The notes beneath the pieces are model-generated. The model was not told where the DNA came from, made no database searches, and was given only the letters and a program-made list of their open reading frames with translations. DNA of 36,766 nucleotides from Candidatus Omnitrophota bacterium (GTDB lineage Bacteria > Omnitrophota > Gorgyraeia > Zapsychrales > Fredricksoniimonadaceae): assembly GCA_015234065.1 (NCBI GenBank), contig JADFWS010000004.1, forward strand, positions 1 to 36,766, read 5' to 3'. Numbering within the stretch: the stretch's first letter is position 1; each line of letters starts with the position of its first letter. This document shows, in pieces, positions 18,738 to 29,507 of this stretch. A program made the translations under genes and the position numbers.

Positions 18738-20006
18738 TTAGAGCTCCTGAAAGCTCGTTTTCACATAAAGTATCTTGCCATTGGAATTAACAGCAACCGG
18801 GAATCCCGGAGGAATGATTGTTTTTAACCGCGAATCATAATACTGCAATTGATTATAACCTCCGTACAACGTCCCGGAAGACGGGTCAAATATCCCCGTC
18901 GGACCGCAATAATTATTAATAAGGCTGCCGTATTGGACCATGTTCCCTTTACCGCCCAACCACCACTGGTCCACTTGAAACGCGCCATTGATCGCCACGA
19001 TCACGGCATCCAGTTCAAGATTGGTAGGCGCAGACTGCGCGGTCACGGTCACATTGTTCTTGGCCACGAGGCCCAGAAGATCTGTGCTGGTAGGATCAGT
19101 CCTCGGGTCTTTGTCATACATTAAATTCCCGCTAACATAAATATCGCCTTCACTCGCGACCGTCACCCGTCCCTTGATCGTCCCCTCGACCGTCGGTGTT
19201 CCGTTCTGCACATAGATAACGCCATTGGAAGGGATCCACATGCTGTGATTGCTCCACCCGTTAGCCGCATTGGTAACGTTCATGGTTCCGTCTGAATGGA
19301 AAACAATGGCACTATCCCCGGATAAAATCAGGCCGGAAGATGACGCCTCGGCAGAAATGTTATTGAGCATCGCCGCCGGTAAAGCGAGTGTCGCCGGATC
19401 ATAGATAACGCCATCCACGAAATCCGGACTGTTATCCGCCCCGTTCCAATAGTTGATCGTCGGGTTTGATTGAGTAACCGGGCCGTCAAAAATAGGCTTT
19501 CCCCATAAATTCAGCTGCCCGTTCGTCCGAACAGGGCCAACAGTTGTCATTCCCGTTATCCACCACAATCTCCCGAAAGTAGGATTGATCTCCGTATTAC
19601 TAAAATATGCGTAGGTCGATAATGCGGATTGCTGAACCTTGAGGATAAGGGTCTTACTGACACCATTGTAGGTCCCAACAGACGTGAGCGTGTATTGGAT
19701 CCACGTAGCACCCGAACCTTGAACCGTTACCGCATAAGAGCCTGTTTTGCTTCCACCGATCACATAATTTGACTCTCCGACCCTGAAAATCATCGGCGGA
19801 TTAGGATTGTTCTTTAATGCGATGAACGCCTCTGCCAGGCCGGCATCCGCAAGATAATATGCCCGCTTCAGATCCATCGCCTTCCGGGTCAACGTAAGCC
19901 CGCCTGTGACCGTTGAAAACAAAAGCGCCACCGAAGAGACCGTCAGTAACAAAAAGGCCAGCGAAAAAACTAAAGCAAACCCTTTTTTATTACTCAGATT
20001 TCTCAT
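18738..20006 (-). CDS. PilX-like / DUF4900-like type IV pilus-associated protein
   Basis: KKGFALVFSLAFLLLTVSSVALLFS...AYYLADAGLAEAF, then beta-rich region with GPVRTNGQLNLWGKPIFDGPVT. Confidence 0.75.
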   Translation of the reverse strand: MRNLSNKKGFALVFSLAFLLLTVSSVALLFSTVTGGLTLTRKAMDLKRAYYLADAGLAEAFIALKNNPNPPMIFRVGESNYVIGGSKTGSYAVTVQGSGATWIQYTLTSVGTYNGVSKTLILKVQQSALSTYAYFSNTEINPTFGRLWWITGMTTVGPVRTNGQLNLWGKPIFDGPVTQSNPTINYWNGADNSPDFVDGVIYDPATLALPAAMLNNISAEASSSGLILSGDSAIVFHSDGTMNVTNAANGWSNHSMWIPSNGVIYVQNGTPTVEGTIKGRVTVASEGDIYVSGNLMYDKDPRTDPTSTDLLGLVAKNNVTVTAQSAPTNLELDAVIVAINGAFQVDQWWLGGKGNMVQYGSLINNYCGPTGIFDPSSGTLYGGYNQLQYYDSRLKTIIPPGFPVAVNSNGKILYVKTSFQEL

Positions 20007-20572
20007 GGGTGATTCCTCAAATTGACCAGGGTTGTCAGACTCCCGGTAACAGGGCTTCCAAAAATATTCTGTACCAAAGCCACACTCACCCCCACGTCTT
20101 TATTACTTGCCGCCAGCGGCCAGAAATACAGGGTGATCGTTGCGCCCACGGGCGCATGATAGAGGATCTCGTCGTCCCCGCCAGGGCTGAGCGGCGTGGG
20201 ATGATGATAGATGAAGGCTGTCCTGGACTCGTTCAAATAATACCAGCGCTCTACACCATCCGTACCCCAGTAATGAAGCTGCGCCGCATCAGGTGTGCTG
20301 CAGGAAGCCGGACGAGCCCCGGAACCTATACAATAGGAAACGCCCTGAGATAAACGATAGATGCCTCCCGGCTCTATCGCGCCTTGAATGATCCTGGCCA
20401 CAATAATATTCGCCCCGTCCTGCAAAACCTGTCCGGCCAGGCCCAAACGAAACGCGGTCCTGAGAATATTATTATAATTGAATACCCCCACCATGAGGAC
20501 CACGGCACAGGCCGTCGCCAGGAGCATCTCGACAAGAGTGAACGCGTTGTTATTGTTTCTTTTCACACACAT
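20003..20572 (-). CDS. prepilin-type N-terminal methylation protein (PilW-like); start MCVKRNNNNAFTLVEM
   Basis: NAFTLVEMLLATACAVVLMVGV prepilin motif; GGAGAAGG 7 nt upstream of ATG at 20572. Confidence 0.8.
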   Translation of the reverse strand: MCVKRNNNNAFTLVEMLLATACAVVLMVGVFNYNNILRTAFRLGLAGQVLQDGANIIVARIIQGAIEPGGIYRLSQGVSYCIGSGARPASCSTPDAAQLHYWGTDGVERWYYLNESRTAFIYHHPTPLSPGGDDEILYHAPVGATITLYFWPLAASNKDVGVSVALVQNIFGSPVTGSLTTLVNLRNHP

Positions 20573-20610
20573 ACGCCAACCTTCTCCCCTGTGAGGGGGC
20601 CATTCAGCAT

Positions 20611-21042
20611 TCAATTAGGCACCGGGTCATTAACAATGATCGTTGAATAATACTCTTTCATGGTCACGTTTTTATTATCCTGCATCTTTTCCTGCCAATC
20701 GACCTCGACATTGATTTTATCGCGATCCGGATCAATATTCACGACGCTGATAAACGCCGTCCCATATAAATACGTCCCTGTATTGCTGAAGTCTCCATTG
20801 AAATCGAGAATAACCGGGCCTGACGTGTTCAGCGACACGGTTGAAAACGGCTGACGCCGGTACTGCTCAAGGATCTGCTGCGCCGCATACATCGCCTGGA
20901 CCTGATGCCGGGAATAAGATCCCAGAAAACGGCTGTTCAAAATACCTTCCGTCGCAGTGACCAGCAGGACCGTGACAATGGCCAAACTGACCAGCGCTTC
21001 TACAAGTGTCAATCCCGTTTCAGCATTCTTGTGCGTATGCAT
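20611..21042 (-). CDS. prepilin-type N-terminal methylation protein (PilV-like)
   Basis: AETGLTLVEALVSLAIVTVLLVTATEGILNSR prepilin motif. Confidence 0.85.
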   Translation of the reverse strand: MHTHKNAETGLTLVEALVSLAIVTVLLVTATEGILNSRFLGSYSRHQVQAMYAAQQILEQYRRQPFSTVSLNTSGPVILDFNGDFSNTGTYLYGTAFISVVNIDPDRDKINVEVDWQEKMQDNKNVTMKEYYSTIIVNDPVPN

Positions 21043-21853: not shown

Positions 21854-22720
21854 CTAATAAACGCATTCCCAGCTTACACAATTCAAAACACCGCCTTCCT
21901 TGGCAAGGACGGTTGATTCGATCGGCACAACCTTCTCCCCGGCAAACGCGCGCCTTAAGATCTTGATCGCACGCTGATTCCACTCAGGATAGCCGACATA
22001 CGTGGGAACGAGCACTAAATCACCCGCGTTCAAGAAATTCACATAGTTCCCGACAGCAGAATGCTTGTTTTTAGAATCCTTTTCAATAAAATACGGCAGA
22101 TCAATCCACCTCAACCCATGTTGACGTAAAACATCTCTTAGCTTGCGACCAAAGATCTTTTGGCCTGGCGCGATTTCATTGATCATCACAGTATTTTTAT
22201 TCACGAACCGCACACATCCATCTGCATGACCGTACGGGTCGCCAGGCTCCTCAGGGATCATGATCAGTTCATCCACATTCAATAGATCCGTTAGAAGTGC
22301 GTACACCGTTGCTTTTCGATATCTGGGGTTTTCTTTGAATACCCGTTCCGTCATGATCGCCTTATAACCATATTGAACAACATTTCCCCCATCAACAACG
22401 AGATCAAAGTGCTTAGGGGTGATCCCGATCGCTTGGCATGTCTTAACAGGGTTAGTTATGGTGGCTCGCCAGCGAGGTGACTTCAAATACGAAGGACGAT
22501 ATTTGAACTGCATGAAATAACCAGGCTCATAATGATTCAAGACAGAAATACTTTCTGGCGGCCTCCAGACAGGCATATAATCCCGGCACCAAATGTCCTG
22601 CGTATATGGTAGAAGCTTAAAGTCGATACGCGCGCCTGAAAGCGCACGAGAGATCTGATCAAAACACTCTGGAAAGCGTTTAGGAAGAAGGGCTGAGAAA
22701 TACAACATCTGTCCAGACAT
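21854..22720 (-). CDS. agmatine deiminase / peptidylarginine deiminase (PAD_porph-like) family; start MSGQMLYF
   Basis: DIWCRDYMPVW, VDGGNVVQYG, EEPGDPYGHADGCVRF, GNYVNFLNAGDLVLVPTY, putative catalytic Cys in EGGVLNCVSWEC. Confidence 0.85.
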   Translation of the reverse strand: MSGQMLYFSALLPKRFPECFDQISRALSGARIDFKLLPYTQDIWCRDYMPVWRPPESISVLNHYEPGYFMQFKYRPSYLKSPRWRATITNPVKTCQAIGITPKHFDLVVDGGNVVQYGYKAIMTERVFKENPRYRKATVYALLTDLLNVDELIMIPEEPGDPYGHADGCVRFVNKNTVMINEIAPGQKIFGRKLRDVLRQHGLRWIDLPYFIEKDSKNKHSAVGNYVNFLNAGDLVLVPTYVGYPEWNQRAIKILRRAFAGEKVVPIESTVLAKEGGVLNCVSWECVY

Positions 22721-22721
22721 T

Positions 22722-23447
22722 CTACGCCTCCTGTGTCGGTTGATATTCACTCTCACTCAAACCGAATGTCCATGCCACCGCCTCACGCACTGTCTGCATC
22801 TCCGGGGGCACGCGCAGAACATAAAAAGCACCTGTTGATGGGCAACAAACCTTGACCAAGGCAATCGGCTCTTCATCAGGCAACGATGAACCAATACGGA
22901 CCAATGCTTGAGGACCATCTTTGTGGATCACCTCATACGGTGCCTGAGCTAAAAACCGTTCATAGCCAAGTTCCTGCAAGAAAATACGCCGTATTTCCGC
23001 ATTCTGTGCGGCCATCACATGACCAGCATTGATCGGCGTTCTTTCAATAGAATCATTTAAATCTTTTGAAGCCAGTTGATCTGCAAGAAATAGTGACTGA
23101 CATTTAAACTTCCCCTGATCATCCCATTCAATAAATAACCCGTGCTTGTGATCAGCCTCATAGGCACTCTTTTTGATCAACATCCCGTTATGTGCCCACT
23201 CAAGAACAACGCCATCCAACTGCCCACGATTATACGGCTCTTGCCGTTTGTTTTTCCCATCAGGATAATAGACCATCCCGACTCCATGCAAGCGCCGGGC
23301 ATGCATCGGATAATCGAACATAAGAGCCCCATTAGGATAAAATCCTTTGGACTCAGCCCTGATCTTTAAAGCCGCATGCGACCGGACATAACACAAACTC
23401 CCACTCGCCCAACGGAATTCCTTTGGCTCTTCAAATCTCTTCTTCAT
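22722..23447 (-). CDS. YwqK/MORN-like repeats fused to DUF6745-like C-terminal domain
   Basis: Repeats GVGMVYYPDGKNKRQEPYNRGQLDGVVLEWAHNGMLIKKSAYEADHKHGLFIEWDDQG; C-term NAEIRRIFLQELGYERFL...LPDEEPIALVKV...FYVLRVPPEMQTVREAVAWTFGL. Confidence 0.7.
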   Translation of the reverse strand: MKKRFEEPKEFRWASGSLCYVRSHAALKIRAESKGFYPNGALMFDYPMHARRLHGVGMVYYPDGKNKRQEPYNRGQLDGVVLEWAHNGMLIKKSAYEADHKHGLFIEWDDQGKFKCQSLFLADQLASKDLNDSIERTPINAGHVMAAQNAEIRRIFLQELGYERFLAQAPYEVIHKDGPQALVRIGSSLPDEEPIALVKVCCPSTGAFYVLRVPPEMQTVREAVAWTFGLSESEYQPTQEA

Positions 23448-24367
23448 GATGCATCCTCGCTACGAAATGAACATCGCAAACTCTTATCATCGAAATCCAA
23501 GTCTGAATATGTATCGCCAGGAAATTTTCGTTTAATATGCCACAAACGCCGTCTGGGATATACTTTCGGCAATTCCAATACGGGATCAATATCCATTTCC
23601 ATGTCGAGAACGGAAATATTATCTGAAACCCGTGCCAGATCTCCCTCAAGTGCTGCAATCTTGTGCAACTTTGGTTCAACATAAGGTCTTGGTAATTCTT
23701 TCTGCAACGCATCTGACATCTTCAAACTGACGATGATGGCGATATCCAACGAAACAGCCAATGCTTTCAACCTTGCGCAAAACCTTTCCCGCCCGGCCCT
23801 GATCACTTCAATATCAGCCGCATATAAGAGACCGATCTCATCAAGACCATCGATAACCACAAGCTGTATTCTTTTCTCACGTACACACGCCTTGATAGAA
23901 TCCTCTAGCCGTATAATATCGAAACATCCGTCAGCGATATATATAGGAGCTTCAGACAACACTCCTGCGGCTGCTGTTAAACGCGGAAGGAGCTCATCTG
24001 CTTTTGCCGTTCTCACGTGCGGTTCTGCAAGACTAACACCGCTTAACTGACACAACATCCGTCTAAGCAATAACTTTGCCGGCATATCAAAAGAATAATA
24101 GGCGCATGGCATATCTCTGCGGGCAGTCACATGCAATGCTATCGATGACAAAAATGCAGTAACCCCAACCCAGGGACATCCTAAAACAAGAGCCAACTGA
24201 CCTCGCCGTACATCAAAAGCACCACGATCATAAGCTCCTGTCGGCATCCCCTGTGTTGAAGGGACCGACTGCTGTAAATCTTCGATCACATCTGAGACAA
24301 TATCTCTGGCACGAACAACATCCTTCCTGTGACGCGCCTTAATTCTTTGAAACAAGTCTAAGAACAT
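23444..24367 (-). CDS. DnaB-like RecA-fold protein with degenerate Walker A
   Basis: RRGQLALVLGCPWVGVTAFLSSIALHVTARRDMPCAYYSFDMPAKLLLRRMLCQLSGV aligns by eye to the DnaB C-terminal domain; Walker B-like IQLVVIDGLDEI. Confidence 0.7.
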   Translation of the reverse strand: MFLDLFQRIKARHRKDVVRARDIVSDVIEDLQQSVPSTQGMPTGAYDRGAFDVRRGQLALVLGCPWVGVTAFLSSIALHVTARRDMPCAYYSFDMPAKLLLRRMLCQLSGVSLAEPHVRTAKADELLPRLTAAAGVLSEAPIYIADGCFDIIRLEDSIKACVREKRIQLVVIDGLDEIGLLYAADIEVIRAGRERFCARLKALAVSLDIAIIVSLKMSDALQKELPRPYVEPKLHKIAALEGDLARVSDNISVLDMEMDIDPVLELPKVYPRRRLWHIKRKFPGDTYSDLDFDDKSLRCSFRSEDAS

Positions 24368-24576
24368 TTTCTGACTCCCCGTCTTTGTTTATCTGCCTTT
24401 ACTGGAGGATCATCGTCCTCATCAGGCCAGATCGGCGCGACCCTAAAGACTAACTTTCCCTTAATGTACACATCCCTAACAACAAGTCGGTCTTCCATGT
24501 CATAGGCCTCATACACCCCATGCAAGCTCGCTATAAACTTCTTACTGTATTTCTTCTTCCATTCGTTATAAGTCAT
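24358..24576 (-). CDS. 72-aa hypothetical protein
   Basis: Sits in a coupled operon (10-bp overlap with the downstream start, 8-nt gap from the upstream stop); YNEWKKKYSKKFIASLHGVYEAYDMEDRLVVRDVYIKGKLVFRV. Confidence 0.65.
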   Translation of the reverse strand: MTYNEWKKKYSKKFIASLHGVYEAYDMEDRLVVRDVYIKGKLVFRVAPIWPDEDDDPPVKADKQRRGVRKCS

Positions 24577-24584
24577 GACCTCTC

Positions 24585-25964
24585 CTAAACTCGACCGGCA
24601 AAACCCATTGGCTGTTTATTTTCTTTTAGGAACATCCCATCCTGCTCCATACGCGCACCAAAGAGAAGATCTTCCATCGTAATTGATGTGCGTTTCTCCT
24701 GAGCCAGGCGCCGTAAAGCATTCATGACCGCGTTCTTGATATATCCTCCGCTCATAACAAATTTCTGCCCCAACTCATTAAAATCAACATCTGCGGCGAT
24801 CGTGACTTTTGAAGGAATATGTGCCCGCCAAATACCTGGACGCAGCGCCTGATCTGGCGGAGTAAATTTAATTTTAAGGGAAACTCTCCGTTCCAAGGCC
24901 GGATCGAGGGCCGTATCAAAGTTCGTCGTCAGGCACAATACGCCTTCGAAACGTTCAATCTCCTGAAGCATCACATTCACAAAAGCAATATCCCTTTCAT
25001 GCTCCATACGCTGCCGACTGTAAAGCAGGGAATCGGCCTCGTCAAAACAGATGACCGCATTCCTGGCCTTAGCTGTCGTAAATAGATTCGCGATATTCTT
25101 TTCAGTCTCGCCAAAAAGTTTATCCGTGATCTGCGGCATGGCAACCTGAAGGATCTTCTTCCCAAGATGGCGGGCAATGGCATCCGCGAGCATACTTTTA
25201 CCGGTTCCCGGAGGCCCATAGAAAAGAAATGCCGCCCCACGCCCTTTTTTAATCTTTTCTTCTATGCCGAGATCGCCCATTCCACCCTTCCAGGAATCAA
25301 TATGAAAGAGAACATCATCCTTTATCTTCTGCGGCAGGACAACATCATCCATCCCATACTCCGGTTCACGAAGATTTCCCGTTTCCTGCAGAGGATCATC
25401 TTTCCCTGCAGTAGGGATCTCTATATTCTTGCCCGACATAAACTCAACCAGAGCTGAGCGCATCGCCGGATTTAAGACAATGTCCGCGTCGTGGTGGCTT
25501 CCGGATGTCCTTGGCTTTAAGATCAAAATATTACGTTTAAAAAGAGGGCTTTCCGCACAAAGAGCCTTATGAAATCGTAATTTTGAATCCCAGGAAGGCT
25601 CAGTATCTACCATGGCTACAAGCTCGTTCACCTGCCAGCCGCAAACAGGATGGAAGAGGTTGGTATAAAGCAAAAACAAAACAGCCTTTTTCTCAAATAG
25701 TCCAAGCTCATTTTCATGGGAAAAGTCATCAAAAAAGAACTTGGCGCCATTTTTGCGCGCATTTTCCACATCCCGCCAGAAGATGACCTCTTCTTCTCTT
25801 AAAAACGCATCAAACCGCTTCAGCTCCCCAAGATCCTTCCAGTACTCGCCTTCGCATGTACTTTTACGTACACGCTCCCAGAGCTTTTCCAAAATAGCCC
25901 GTTTTTGAAGAAAGAATTCGCACAATGTAAAATATTCACTGAAATAATCCTGATCGTTCTTCAT
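24585..25964 (-). CDS. AAA+ ATPase (classical AAA, FtsH/spastin-like module) with unknown N-terminal domain
   Basis: Walker A FYGPPGTGKSMLADAIA; Walker B AVICFDEADSLL; sensor LCLTTNFD; SRH LDPALERRVSLKI. Confidence 0.93.
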   Translation of the reverse strand: MKNDQDYFSEYFTLCEFFLQKRAILEKLWERVRKSTCEGEYWKDLGELKRFDAFLREEEVIFWRDVENARKNGAKFFFDDFSHENELGLFEKKAVLFLLYTNLFHPVCGWQVNELVAMVDTEPSWDSKLRFHKALCAESPLFKRNILILKPRTSGSHHDADIVLNPAMRSALVEFMSGKNIEIPTAGKDDPLQETGNLREPEYGMDDVVLPQKIKDDVLFHIDSWKGGMGDLGIEEKIKKGRGAAFLFYGPPGTGKSMLADAIARHLGKKILQVAMPQITDKLFGETEKNIANLFTTAKARNAVICFDEADSLLYSRQRMEHERDIAFVNVMLQEIERFEGVLCLTTNFDTALDPALERRVSLKIKFTPPDQALRPGIWRAHIPSKVTIAADVDFNELGQKFVMSGGYIKNAVMNALRRLAQEKRTSITMEDLLFGARMEQDGMFLKENKQPMGFAGRV

Positions 25965-26149: not shown

Positions 26150-26183
26150 AGTATAAAACAGGAACGCGACAGCCTTGTGTCGC
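26150..26183 (-). promoter_or_regulatory. putative promoter with operator O3 for the AAA+ operon
   Basis: GCGACA-gccttg-TGTCGC palindrome at 26166-26183; minus-strand -10 TATACT at 26150-26155, so the palindrome covers the expected -35 position. Confidence 0.6.
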
Positions 26184-26184
26184 C

Positions 26185-26229
26185 TATAAAAAGAAAACCG
26201 GCCGCGCGGGCTTTAACCCATGCGGCCGC
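26185..26229 (-). terminator. Rho-independent terminator ending the WYL/GIY-YIG operon
   Basis: Minus strand GGCCGCATGGG-TTAAAG-CCCGCGCGGCC followed by GGTTTTCTTTTTATA. Confidence 0.75.
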
Positions 26230-26285
26230 AAAGAAATTGAGAAGCCATAAATTATTTTAGTGCCACAAACGTTCAAAAAAGACAT

Positions 26286-26819
26286 TTATTTCTGGCATAA
26301 GATTGGCCAACCATAATGTGCCCTCCAAGCACATTCCATAGTTCCCGCGAATTCTTTATAAGAATGTTGGGTGCGAAAAACTTCTGGCAAGTCATGCCAA
26401 CAAACATAAGAAAATCCCCACTTGTCCAGATTCCTTGTCGAAGTGCCGCCTATCGCCAAGGCCCCTGTTCCTTGCCCCCCTTTAAATTCTTGGGATATAC
26501 GCCGACGCAAGTCTACAGCCTTGCCGTTATACACAACTCGATATTGATTGTCCCTTCCCCCCGTAAAATTACAGATATGTTCAAGCTCGCTGTGCCATTG
26601 AACGCATTTATCAATAGGCGCAGCCCCTGACAGGTCACTTAACTTAGATTGACCAATCGCATTATTTGTATACGATGTATAAATCCAATAAAGACCCGCC
26701 ATCTTGACCGGAAGATCTGCTGGAAACTTAAAATCATCATCCCATGCGTGCAGAACAACATCCAGTCTACAAAATCGGCCGGACTGAATCGAATTTATCT
26801 TCTCAATCACTTCTTTCAT
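26286..26819 (-). CDS. divergent GIY-YIG-like nuclease domain protein; likely start MKEVIEKINSIQ
   Basis: GLYWIYTSYTNN (GIY-like) and YRVVYNGKAVDLRRRISQEF (YIG...R-like). Confidence 0.55.
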   Translation of the reverse strand: MKEVIEKINSIQSGRFCRLDVVLHAWDDDFKFPADLPVKMAGLYWIYTSYTNNAIGQSKLSDLSGAAPIDKCVQWHSELEHICNFTGGRDNQYRVVYNGKAVDLRRRISQEFKGGQGTGALAIGGTSTRNLDKWGFSYVCWHDLPEVFRTQHSYKEFAGTMECAWRAHYGWPILCQK

Positions 26820-26855
26820 ATGGATGCCCTCTAAATAGTCAAAGAAACACATTCT

Positions 26856-27830
26856 TTAACATGACTTTAGATATACCCCCACCGTCTCTCGTATCCTCGC
26901 CTTGAACTCCGCCGGTTCAAGAACAGACAAGCAAGGAATCCAATGCATAATGAGATGCGAAATCTCATCCGGATGCGCAGGAAAAGTCTCAAGGACCAAT
27001 GAACCATCCTTCTTCTCCTCAACAATCTTTTGAAGGGGGAAATATTTACGATGCTTGAAATACTGCGCGGCCTCAGGGGCAACGCGAATAAGCACACGGT
27101 TCGGGCGATCCGTATCGAACCAAATATTAACACTCTGCTCAAGGATCTTGTCAAAGCCCGCCATTGGCACAAAAGAGTCTTCAGTCTGAGTAGCCTTACG
27201 GATACGATCCAGACGGAACTTAATGATTTTCTTGTTCGCATCCTGAGTTAACAAATACCAGAAGCCATCAAAAAACGCGATCTTAAGAGGCTCCACAAGG
27301 TATTCCTTCTCCTCACCATTAGAACGAAGATAAAGGATCTTGAGCTTCTCATAACCATCCACAGCCTTCTGTATCTCTGTAAGGCAGTCAGACTGCGGAA
27401 GAAATGTTCCGGATGGTATCTTGGCATAGAAAGGCGTGTCGGTATGAGGAACCATGACGCGTTTGAAAAGCTCACGAAAAGTCTTCTCAAAGGCGTCACC
27501 TAAAGACGATGAAATACCGTGCATGAAGGAAAGTAATGACGCCTGCTCTTCTGTCAATTCCACCTTGCCAAGATTAAACCCTGCCATGAAAGAATGCTTA
27601 CCCTTTTCAGGGGAATAAATCGGATAAAAACCAGCCAGTAGCACAATGTCACGCTGGATCGTGCGCATATCAACACCGATATCTGCGGCGAGGCCTGATG
27701 ATGTTACAAATTTATTTGTATTCAGTTTGGAAAGAATCAAAATCAAACGTTCAATGGTCTTCATGTAATCCTTGGCAGGCTTACCCGAACCTTTGCGCTT
27801 AAATGTCACGATTTTCTTTTTTGCTGGCAT
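26856..27830 (-). CDS. WYL-domain transcriptional regulator with N-terminal HTH
   Basis: VTSSGLAADIGVDMRTIQRDIVLL (HTH); YEKLKILYLRSNGEEKEYLVEPLKIAFFDGFWYLLTQDANKKIIKFRLDRI (WYL). Confidence 0.9.
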   Translation of the reverse strand: MPAKKKIVTFKRKGSGKPAKDYMKTIERLILILSKLNTNKFVTSSGLAADIGVDMRTIQRDIVLLAGFYPIYSPEKGKHSFMAGFNLGKVELTEEQASLLSFMHGISSSLGDAFEKTFRELFKRVMVPHTDTPFYAKIPSGTFLPQSDCLTEIQKAVDGYEKLKILYLRSNGEEKEYLVEPLKIAFFDGFWYLLTQDANKKIIKFRLDRIRKATQTEDSFVPMAGFDKILEQSVNIWFDTDRPNRVLIRVAPEAAQYFKHRKYFPLQKIVEEKKDGSLVLETFPAHPDEISHLIMHWIPCLSVLEPAEFKARIRETVGVYLKSC

Positions 27831-27843
27831 GGCACATCCTTTC

Positions 27844-29418
27844 TTAAGATCTAACGATCTCTTTTAATTTCTTCAATATATCCACCATCGCCTGCGTATC
27901 TAGCCCACAATACGCCTCGAGATCTGCATAAACTTTGGCACGATCGGTCGGATTTACATTTTCATCGTAAGTAACACGCGCATACTCTGACGACGCCAAT
28001 CCACCTTCTCCAATGGCCATACCCGCATAAGTTTTACCAATAAATGCCGGTAAAACCTTCTTGAGCGACGCCGACCCATGCTGATCAGGATGGTGATAAT
28101 GATACTTACTAAAAGGGATCATCAAATCTTCTGTCCTGGGCAAGACATCTTGGGCCCACTGGGAATATTCAGGGAAAGCCTCCCCCAACTCTTTGATCCT
28201 GCCTTCCTCAAAACTTTTATTCCAGGCCAGGATCGTGCCATCAGAGCCAAGACAAGCTTTAAGCGCCTTTACAAAAGCAGGGCGAGGATCGTCAGATGAC
28301 TTATGCAGAAATTCAAAATGCTTCGGCGTTGCTCCAGGGGTTTCCTCAAGATGCACGGAAAACTGGAACGGCACCTGTTGATACGGTCGCGTTCCATCAA
28401 ACCGCGGGATAGCCTCAAAGATAGTCTCAAAATCCATATGCCGAAGAGGATAGCTGATCGCCTGAAGGAAACCCGAAATCTCTGGCTGATCCACATGCGC
28501 CTGATTACTAATAGTGCACAATCGCTGGATCATCTGATTATCCGTTAACTTAAAACCATCAGGTATATCTACCAAACGAAGAATGCCCTGGTCCACGAGG
28601 TCAAACCCCTTCTTCTTCCCGCGCGTCAGCTCAAGAACATTAAAGGCTGGCAAGAACGCCCAGCATACAGGCTTCATCGGACAATCATATCGAACCCCTG
28701 ATTTCTTGGTACAACCCTCACTAATAGAAATATTGGGACATGCCGGCATGTCTATAGTCTGAAAGAATCCTTTCAAAAGCACAGCAAGCTGAACAAAGAA
28801 AGGCACGATCTCCTCAGTAACATCTTCCAAAGTAAAGAACGCCTCAACATCAATCTCACCATGGCGCACATACTCATTATTAATGTGCATCAAAAAACAA
28901 CGACCGACCTTGATCCCCGCCTGTTCATAGCAATAACGTTGAAACGCTACGTCCTGTAGATATATCTCTTTCACACTCGTTCCGCATTTAACTTCAACAA
29001 CATCCCATGCGCCGGAATTTGTCTTTGACGGGACAAGGATATCAGCACGAGCATAAAGCCGTCCAGTCTTAATCCCAGCCTCATAAATAGGCCGCGGATC
29101 AACAGCACTCAATAAAGACTTTGTTTCTTGGATATTCTCCATGAAATTCTCTTCCTGGACATGAACGCCACCAGGGAACCTTTTCATGGCCAAAGAGCCG
29201 ACCCTATGCCCTGTATCAAAAACCCTCTGAAGGCTATCAGGTGTCGGCGGGATCTGGTCAGGAGCATTACAACGTATCCATAAAAGTTTAGGACACTGCA
29301 GAGCATTTAAGAACTTCGACTTTGTCAGCGTCTTTGGATCTTTGACCGCTTTCAGATCCCGAACAGAATCATAAACAAAATCATTCTGCAGTTTGCTAAA
29401 TTCAAATTCATCATCCAT
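27844..29418 (-). CDS. DUF2779-family protein: Cas4/PD-(D/E)XK-like N-terminal region plus DEDD exonuclease-like C-terminal region; likely start MDDEFEFSKL
   Basis: SKFLNALQCPKLLW; RADILV...WDVVEVKCG; CX8CX9CX5C cluster CPNISISEGCTKKSGVRYDCPMKPVC; RHMDFETIFEAIPRF; DLEAYCGLDTQAMV. Confidence 0.8.
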   Translation of the reverse strand: MDDEFEFSKLQNDFVYDSVRDLKAVKDPKTLTKSKFLNALQCPKLLWIRCNAPDQIPPTPDSLQRVFDTGHRVGSLAMKRFPGGVHVQEENFMENIQETKSLLSAVDPRPIYEAGIKTGRLYARADILVPSKTNSGAWDVVEVKCGTSVKEIYLQDVAFQRYCYEQAGIKVGRCFLMHINNEYVRHGEIDVEAFFTLEDVTEEIVPFFVQLAVLLKGFFQTIDMPACPNISISEGCTKKSGVRYDCPMKPVCWAFLPAFNVLELTRGKKKGFDLVDQGILRLVDIPDGFKLTDNQMIQRLCTISNQAHVDQPEISGFLQAISYPLRHMDFETIFEAIPRFDGTRPYQQVPFQFSVHLEETPGATPKHFEFLHKSSDDPRPAFVKALKACLGSDGTILAWNKSFEEGRIKELGEAFPEYSQWAQDVLPRTEDLMIPFSKYHYHHPDQHGSASLKKVLPAFIGKTYAGMAIGEGGLASSEYARVTYDENVNPTDRAKVYADLEAYCGLDTQAMVDILKKLKEIVRS

Positions 29419-29442
29419 TGCAGGCCGCCCTTCCACATTAAA

Positions 29443-29458
29443 CGACACATTTGTGTCG
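29443..29458. promoter_or_regulatory. putative operator O1
   Basis: Perfect palindrome CGACACA-TT-TGTGTCG just downstream of the putative -10. Confidence 0.65.
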
Positions 29459-29461
29459 CCA

Positions 29462-29497
29462 TTTATAAATATACCACAAAATCTGACAAAGCGACAA
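29462..29497 (-). promoter_or_regulatory. putative sigma70-type promoter of the DUF2779-WYL operon
   Basis: Minus strand TTGTCG-N18-TATATT (or TTGTCA-N16-TATAAA). Confidence 0.5.
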
Positions 29498-29507
29498 CTT
29501 GTTGTCG
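29492..29507. promoter_or_regulatory. putative operator O2
   Basis: Perfect palindrome CGACAAC-TT-GTTGTCG (GCGACAACTTGTTGTCGC), overlapping the putative -35. Confidence 0.65.

Follow-up and report, generated by a model that had tools for sequence, protein, structure and literature searches.

Which protein reads the palindromes that mark two neighbouring operons in this genome, and does it switch them off or on? The DNA analysed here (the window) comprises positions 1 to 36,766 of contig JADFWS010000004.1 from a Candidatus Omnitrophota bacterium, and it contains two operons on the minus strand: operon 1, encoding a DUF2779 protein, a putative regulator with winged helix-turn-helix (wHTH), WYL and WCX domains (the WYL protein) and a small GIY-YIG-like protein; and operon 2, headed by an AAA+ ATPase gene. 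The initial annotation described three copies of the palindrome CGACA-N6-TGTCG (O1, O2 and O3) at the two promoters, and suggested that the WYL protein encoded between them acts there as a repressor. We propose that the WYL protein is probably a DriD-like activator that binds this palindrome, senses single-stranded DNA (ssDNA) and controls a regulon made up of several defence systems.

A rare palindrome at operon promoters

The three copies are exact matches at their annotated coordinates, O1 at 29443-29458 (CGACACAAATGTGTCG), O2 at 29492-29507 (CGACAACAAGTTGTCG) and O3 at 26167-26182 (CGACACAAGGCTGTCG), all read on the minus strand. Including one at 2613-2628 on the plus strand, the window has four exact matches, where 0.03 are expected and none of 100 shuffles reaches four; arm spacings from N4 to N8 other than N6 give no extra match in the window. 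The fourth match has an off-consensus core and no -10 at +11, and because it coincides with the beginning of a fabF-like open reading frame, has different flanks (CCCGACA...TGTCGGGG) and folds as a 10-bp RNA hairpin (-21.3 kcal/mol, z -3.6), we judge it, as did the initial annotation, to be a chance occurrence and set it aside. The motif is also rare in the 1.75 Mb of this genome as a whole, with only seven exact matches compared to two for a reversed-pattern control.

Three of the seven lie outside the window. The site at C149:933 precedes a cas3 HD gene, 43 nt 5' of its start codon, and that at C30:3105 is upstream of an operon encoding a metallophosphatase and a DUF2779 protein, the latter with 69% identity to the DUF2779 protein of the window. 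The third, at C144:2755, adjoins the C-terminal remnant of a second WYL gene, where there is also a one-mismatch site. This remnant (L029:2113-2235 in G000:C144; 73-75% identity) has a replicative DnaB gene on one side and two palindromes on the other, and represents a decayed island copy within the same genome.

At operon 2, O3 occupies the -35 position (about -39 to -24) between the operon 1 terminator (26199-26228) and the -10, as had been annotated; the -10, TATACT (26150-26155, minus strand), begins exactly 11 nt after O3, which is a canonical, gene-oriented site. The O3 16-mer is identical upstream of AAA genes in two other genomes (G006 and G023), and the arrangement is conserved, with a fixed-phase site preceding AAA homologues in 8/9 loci searched.

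Co-occurrence of the palindrome and the WYL gene

Among named relatives, the nearest are Candidatus Omnitrophica / Omnitrophota metagenome-assembled genomes. We turned to 17 out-of-family WYL genes belonging to further families and classes of Omnitrophota, the products of which share 36-44% identity with the WYL protein of the window; 16 of these orthologues have an exact palindrome nearby, compared to 0.06 expected over all 17. The distance between site and WYL gene ranges from 9 bp to 1.7 kb, and 15 of the 16 are within 0.8 kb. An unbiased scan of the 17 loci with all 5-mer arms and spacers of 0-12 returns CGACA-N6-TGTCG as the top dyad, with 33 copies in 16 loci.

A directional promoter pattern, CGACANNANGNTGTCG-N11-TANNNT, was searched for in 384 genomes of the phylum and is present in 24, with no match to the reversed-pattern control in any listed genome. 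It occurs in 16 of the 21 genomes with the WYL gene versus 8 of the 363 without it (Fisher p 1.7e-18), and three of those eight carry a diverged or truncated WYL gene, which in two (G293 and G316) is beside the site. Within the family, relatives with a WYL orthologue have intergenic palindromes upstream of related operons, and in WYL-less relatives nearly all exact matches are inside housekeeping genes such as gyrA and gyrB; the exception is G023, in which the O3 16-mer is 5' of an AAA homologue with no WYL hit in an assembly that is 78% complete. A count of all matches per genome among relatives is only moderately significant (p 0.003) because of the chance in-gene matches in WYL-less genomes, and these are excluded by the directional pattern. 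The sites thus appear to be regulatory, and both the phylum-wide distribution and the adjacency in 16/17 loci support the annotation's suspicion that the WYL protein encoded at 27830-26856 is very probably their regulator. The promoter code seems to be limited to this WYL clade, as homologues in Campylobacterota (mostly 23-31% identity) are accompanied by AT-rich dyads only, with no CGACA motif.

In several genomes the WYL gene adjoins ParB-like, small-terminase-like and large-terminase-like genes (L196, L201, L204), a hint that the island moves together with phage-like elements. One IMG/VR viral-class contig found via its WYL gene (L281) encodes WYL and DUF2779 proteins with a site between both, and in another (L285) a diverged WYL gene lies between two oriented sites, one of them 5' of a RecA-fold ATPase gene. 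L285 is the only convincing contig among six from a promoter search of viral contigs, four of which have motifs inside coding frames (likely chance) and one of which (L286) has a motif without recognisable context.

Promoter geometry

Alignment of 62 sites by the gene that each precedes defines a composite element, G-CGACA-nRAnGY-TGTCG-C, with 11 nt separating the end of the palindrome from TAnnnT and a G favoured at -14 (34/62 sites), such that the palindrome spans about -39 to -24. TAnnnT is found at +11 in 48/62 sites (77%) versus about 3% at other offsets, and several of the misfits are divergent sites with the promoter facing the opposite way. The core nRAnGY lacks symmetry and points the same way as the gene, with an A at position 8 of 56/62 sites and a G at position 10 of 50/62, and the sites are a median of 47 nt upstream of the start codon. 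The hexamer 17 bp 5' of the -10 matches TTGACA at 2.2-2.3 of 6 positions versus a background of 2.59, whereas the LexA-controlled lexA promoters of the same phylum match at 6/6. A generic sigma-70 scan of the region was no better than shuffles, and the promoter claims therefore rest on the cross-site alignment. Promoters that combine a good -10 and a fixed-phase factor site with the lack of a -35 bear the signature of activation, as in the layout of the activators DriD and PafBC, and the repression that had been suggested is plausible at operon 1 (O1 and O2) only; at O3 and most other sites it does not agree with the fixed-phase geometry and the missing -35.

Genes downstream of the sites

The annotation considered the two operon promoters of the window, a scope that proves too narrow, as sites of this type accompany genes for defence and DNA processing at unlinked loci and mark a multi-locus defence regulon. 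In addition to the cas3 gene of this genome, sites precede cas3-cas5 as well as an HKD+Snf2 helicase gene in G016, a cas3 HD gene in G361, and another HKD+Snf2 helicase gene in G072. AddB/AddA-like nuclease genes follow sites in G019 and G192, hsdM (hsdM/S) in G010, G063 and G200, and a type IIG methylase gene in G076. A Hachiman-type HmaA helicase (1740 bits) is encoded behind a site in G059, and a Schlafen-type helicase (PDC-S41; SLFN-g3) in G220. Sites also precede DUF2779, AAA, DnaB_C-like, DUF6745 and metallo-beta-lactamase operons.

A region of about 20 kb in G019 (L088, G019:C18:110500-130000) has nearly all of its genes on the same strand, and almost every operon is preceded by a site in fixed phase; the operons include genes for a DnaJ-domain protein and metallophosphatases. 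It is possibly a defence island of unknown type.

The WYL protein and its relatives

The WYL protein is the 324-residue product of a single gene, with Pfam matches to WYL (1.5e-13) and WCX (5e-11), a match to HTH_11 (2.8e-4) that is below the cut-off, and an FRLDRI motif in the WYL domain. Its residues R56, Q59 and R60 are conserved and are candidates for contacts with the half-site guanines. A fold search against the PDB, with a model whose three-helix-bundle region is below a pLDDT (predicted local distance difference test score) of 50, matches PafBC (3e-14) and DriD (7e-13), and PDB profile and fold searches both rank these two ahead of BrxR and CapW.

DriD of Caulobacter crescentus is a homodimeric WYL activator whose WYL domain binds ssDNA in a DNA damage response independent of SOS (PMC12340889). 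Its sites are at a constant distance to the -10, overlap the -35 and are accompanied by a conserved G-14, and sigma domain 4 is sandwiched between its DNA-binding domains around a -35 that matches at only 1-2/6 positions; the binding probe, CGACAGTAACTGTCG, contains CGACA-N5-TGTCG (PMC12340889). By our own reading of the register, the three printed DriD promoters have 11 nt between the right half-site and the hexamer, which for bapE is a poor match, and G-14 in 3/3. DriD and the WYL protein share the half-sites CGACA/TGTCG (CGAC/GTCG), a site over a poor -35, the 11-nt phase to the -10, the G at -14, unlinked target promoters and probably the wHTH-WYL-WCX organization. They differ in that the two proteins have only 15-18% identity in structural alignment, and that the DriD regulon consists of didA/bapE/recJ/dnaG rather than defence systems.

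Other WYL regulators have a more partial likeness. PafBC of mycobacteria, an activator by sigma adaptation that gives the best PDB sequence and fold match, contacts an element at about -26, between the -35 and -10 (PMC11804915, PMC10693628), and this -26 element is a shared feature; however, it is a heterodimer with a non-palindromic site and another regulon, whereas the present system has a single gene and a palindromic site. SiwR of Mycobacterium smegmatis, a WYL activator, is like the one proposed here a single protein with a palindrome 5' of the -10, and its -26 region is needed for activation (PMC10693628). It differs in its site, a 19-bp imperfect palindrome at -26 with a conserved GGA, and in its reported control of adjacent genes (PMC10693628). 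CapW and BrxR also govern phage-defence genes through palindromes, as repressors of cyclic-oligonucleotide-based antiphage signalling system (CBASS) and bacteriophage exclusion (BREX) islands, respectively; CapW sites overlap the -10, and those of BrxR, inverted repeats of 11 bp separated by 5 bp, are downstream of it (PMC9122588, PMC9122601). These are local repressors, in contrast to a multi-locus regulon with sites centred on the -35, and an operator over or after the -10 is absent at O3 and most sites (-39 to -24); only O1 fits. When we searched the literature for comparable defence regulons, the WYL regulators that we found were all local ones.

Operon 1 and alternative explanations

The promoter of operon 1 differs from the others. 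The best predicted pair is TTGTCA-N16-TATAAA (29462-29489, minus strand; -35 at 29489-29484, -10 at 29467-29462) with 10/12 consensus bases, located between O2 just to its 5' side and O1 directly after the -10. O1 covers the predicted transcription start, as placed from the -10, and neither its core (CAAATG) nor that of O2 (ACAAGT) fits the consensus; both lack a -10 at +11. The pair apparently meant in the initial annotation, with O2 as the -35, is the runner-up (TTGTCG with TATATT, 18-bp spacer, 9/12). With a near-consensus promoter enclosed by the two sites and the expected start covered by O1, the geometry is that of a repressor and probably reflects negative autoregulation of the DUF2779-WYL-GIY operon. 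Other DUF2779-WYL operons are mixed, with an activator-type site in G006 and G019, and an extra site near the start codon in G019.

Several observations weigh against a DriD-like activator. O1 and O2, at the operon of the regulator itself, do not fit activator geometry, and a repressor centred on the -35 could show a fixed phase as well. The spacer of the DriD site is CGAC-N7-GTCG (N5) versus CGAC-N8-GTCG (N6) here, one base longer, and we therefore term the protein DriD-like rather than a DriD orthologue. The AlphaFold model is modest (mean pLDDT 67), with residues 87-144, the three-helix bundle, below 50, which is too weak to support conclusions on that bundle at the domain level. Five genomes have the motif without a WYL hit, two (G022 and G029) have the WYL gene without an exact site, although G022 has a one-mismatch site at the O3-equivalent position, and one WYL copy in G284 has no nearby site.

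The alternative that survives best is that the WYL protein is a repressor of the CapW/BrxR type at these same sites, with phage infection relieving the whole regulon. It would account for O1 and O2 flanking TTGTCA-N16-TATAAA and for a palindrome over the -35 region, where polymerase would be blocked, and there is precedent in CapW and BrxR, which govern defence operons (PMC9122588, PMC9122601). We consider it unlikely, since promoters of the regulon have no -35 and would be weak if de-repressed, whereas LexA-repressed promoters keep TTGACA; the fixed 11-nt phase and oriented core are unexpected for repressor sites, CapW sites overlap the -10, and fold and profile searches put DriD and PafBC above BrxR and CapW.

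A much weaker case can be made for another regulator, either LexA/SOS or an unrecognised factor travelling with the island, with the WYL protein a mere neighbour. The LexA box of the phylum, as seen at the lexA loci L115-L143, is apparently TACCACAC-N4-GTGTGGTA with a TTGACA -35, and has the same ACA-N6-TGT skeleton; the five motif-containing genomes without a WYL hit also favour such a factor. However, LexA boxes (CCACAC-N4-GTGTGG, or CCACA-N6-TGTGG) carry CCACA in place of CGACA, and most relatives without intergenic CGACA sites do have LexA. We rejected LexA/SOS as the regulator on box sequence, presence and absence, and -35 quality; in the genome of the window (85.7% complete) there is no LexA hit, and no LexA DNA-binding domain was found. 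Any regulator other than the WYL protein is very improbable, given a half-site equal to that of DriD, a motif that tracks the WYL gene phylum-wide, and no other gene seen at every site-bearing locus. Lastly, it is scarcely credible that the palindromes serve in recombination or belong to mobile elements (Xer/integron-like), or that they are repeats arising by chance: there is one site per operon through the 20-kb island in G019 and some are near integrase, terminase or ParB-like genes, but they are gene-oriented, upstream of genes (median 47 nt) and locked to the -10, and the arms are only 5-6 bp.

For the DriD-like activator that we favour, the WYL domains of a homodimer would probably bind ssDNA arising from phage infection or DNA damage, upon which the dimer would bind the two half-sites either side of the degenerate -35 region and aid the housekeeping RNA polymerase at promoters with a good -10 and no -35. 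Operon 2 would be switched on through O3, as would operons for defence and DNA processing at other places in the genome, and O2 and O1, at a near-consensus promoter, would provide negative autoregulation of operon 1.

Other features of the two operons

The first gene of operon 1 (27844-29418, minus strand; start codon assigned by homology) encodes a DUF2779 protein (PF11074, E 4.4e-41) with an N-terminal PD-(D/E)XK-like motif as judged by eye. It is followed by the WYL gene (26856-27830, minus strand) and by a gene (26286-26852, minus strand) for the small GIY-YIG-like protein, which has no Pfam hit and was assigned by eye (GLYWIY...GKAVDLRRRI). The DUF2779-WYL pair was not found to be described in the literature that we searched. 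Between operon 1 and O3 there is an intrinsic terminator on the minus strand, a GC-rich hairpin followed by a T-run (-24.2 kcal/mol, z -3.75).

All operon 2 genes are on the minus strand. The AAA+ ATPase gene (24585-25964; best PADLOC match IetA, 1.2e-30) is followed by a gene for a 72-residue protein (24358-24576), a similar one being found after the AAA gene in G006 and G019, and by genes for a DnaB_C-like RecA-fold ATPase (23444-24367; PF03796, 1.9e-18), a protein with MORN_2 and DUF6745 Pfam domains (22722-23447), and a peptidyl-arginine/agmatine deiminase-like protein (21854-22756; PF04371, 1.6e-25). Beside the cluster, at 18738-21042, are type II secretion/type IV pilin-like genes with prepilin signal peptides, which are apparently unrelated.

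Implications

A broader question is whether antiviral immunity in Omnitrophota has one DriD-like WYL activator as its master switch, triggered by ssDNA and independent of LexA, and on this we are evenly divided. If so, a single operator architecture would wire together unrelated and horizontally exchanged systems, with new operons plugging in by means of their promoters: type I CRISPR-Cas, type I and IIG restriction-modification, Hachiman-like and Snf2 helicases, an AddAB-like nuclease, and DUF2779/AAA/DUF6745 clusters. Such an activator, acting in trans, would contrast with CapW and BrxR, which are described as local repressors of the adjoining system. The readable code GCGACAnRAnGYTGTCGC-N10-TAnnnT would then show the coordination of many acquired defence systems, and DNA-damage sensing would be tied to immunity outside SOS. 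The promoter code may also serve as a search string for known as well as unknown defence genes in a phylum that lacks genetics, and from it we predict that the uncharacterised DUF2779, AAA+, DnaB_C-like, DUF6745 and metallo-beta-lactamase operons would be defence systems.

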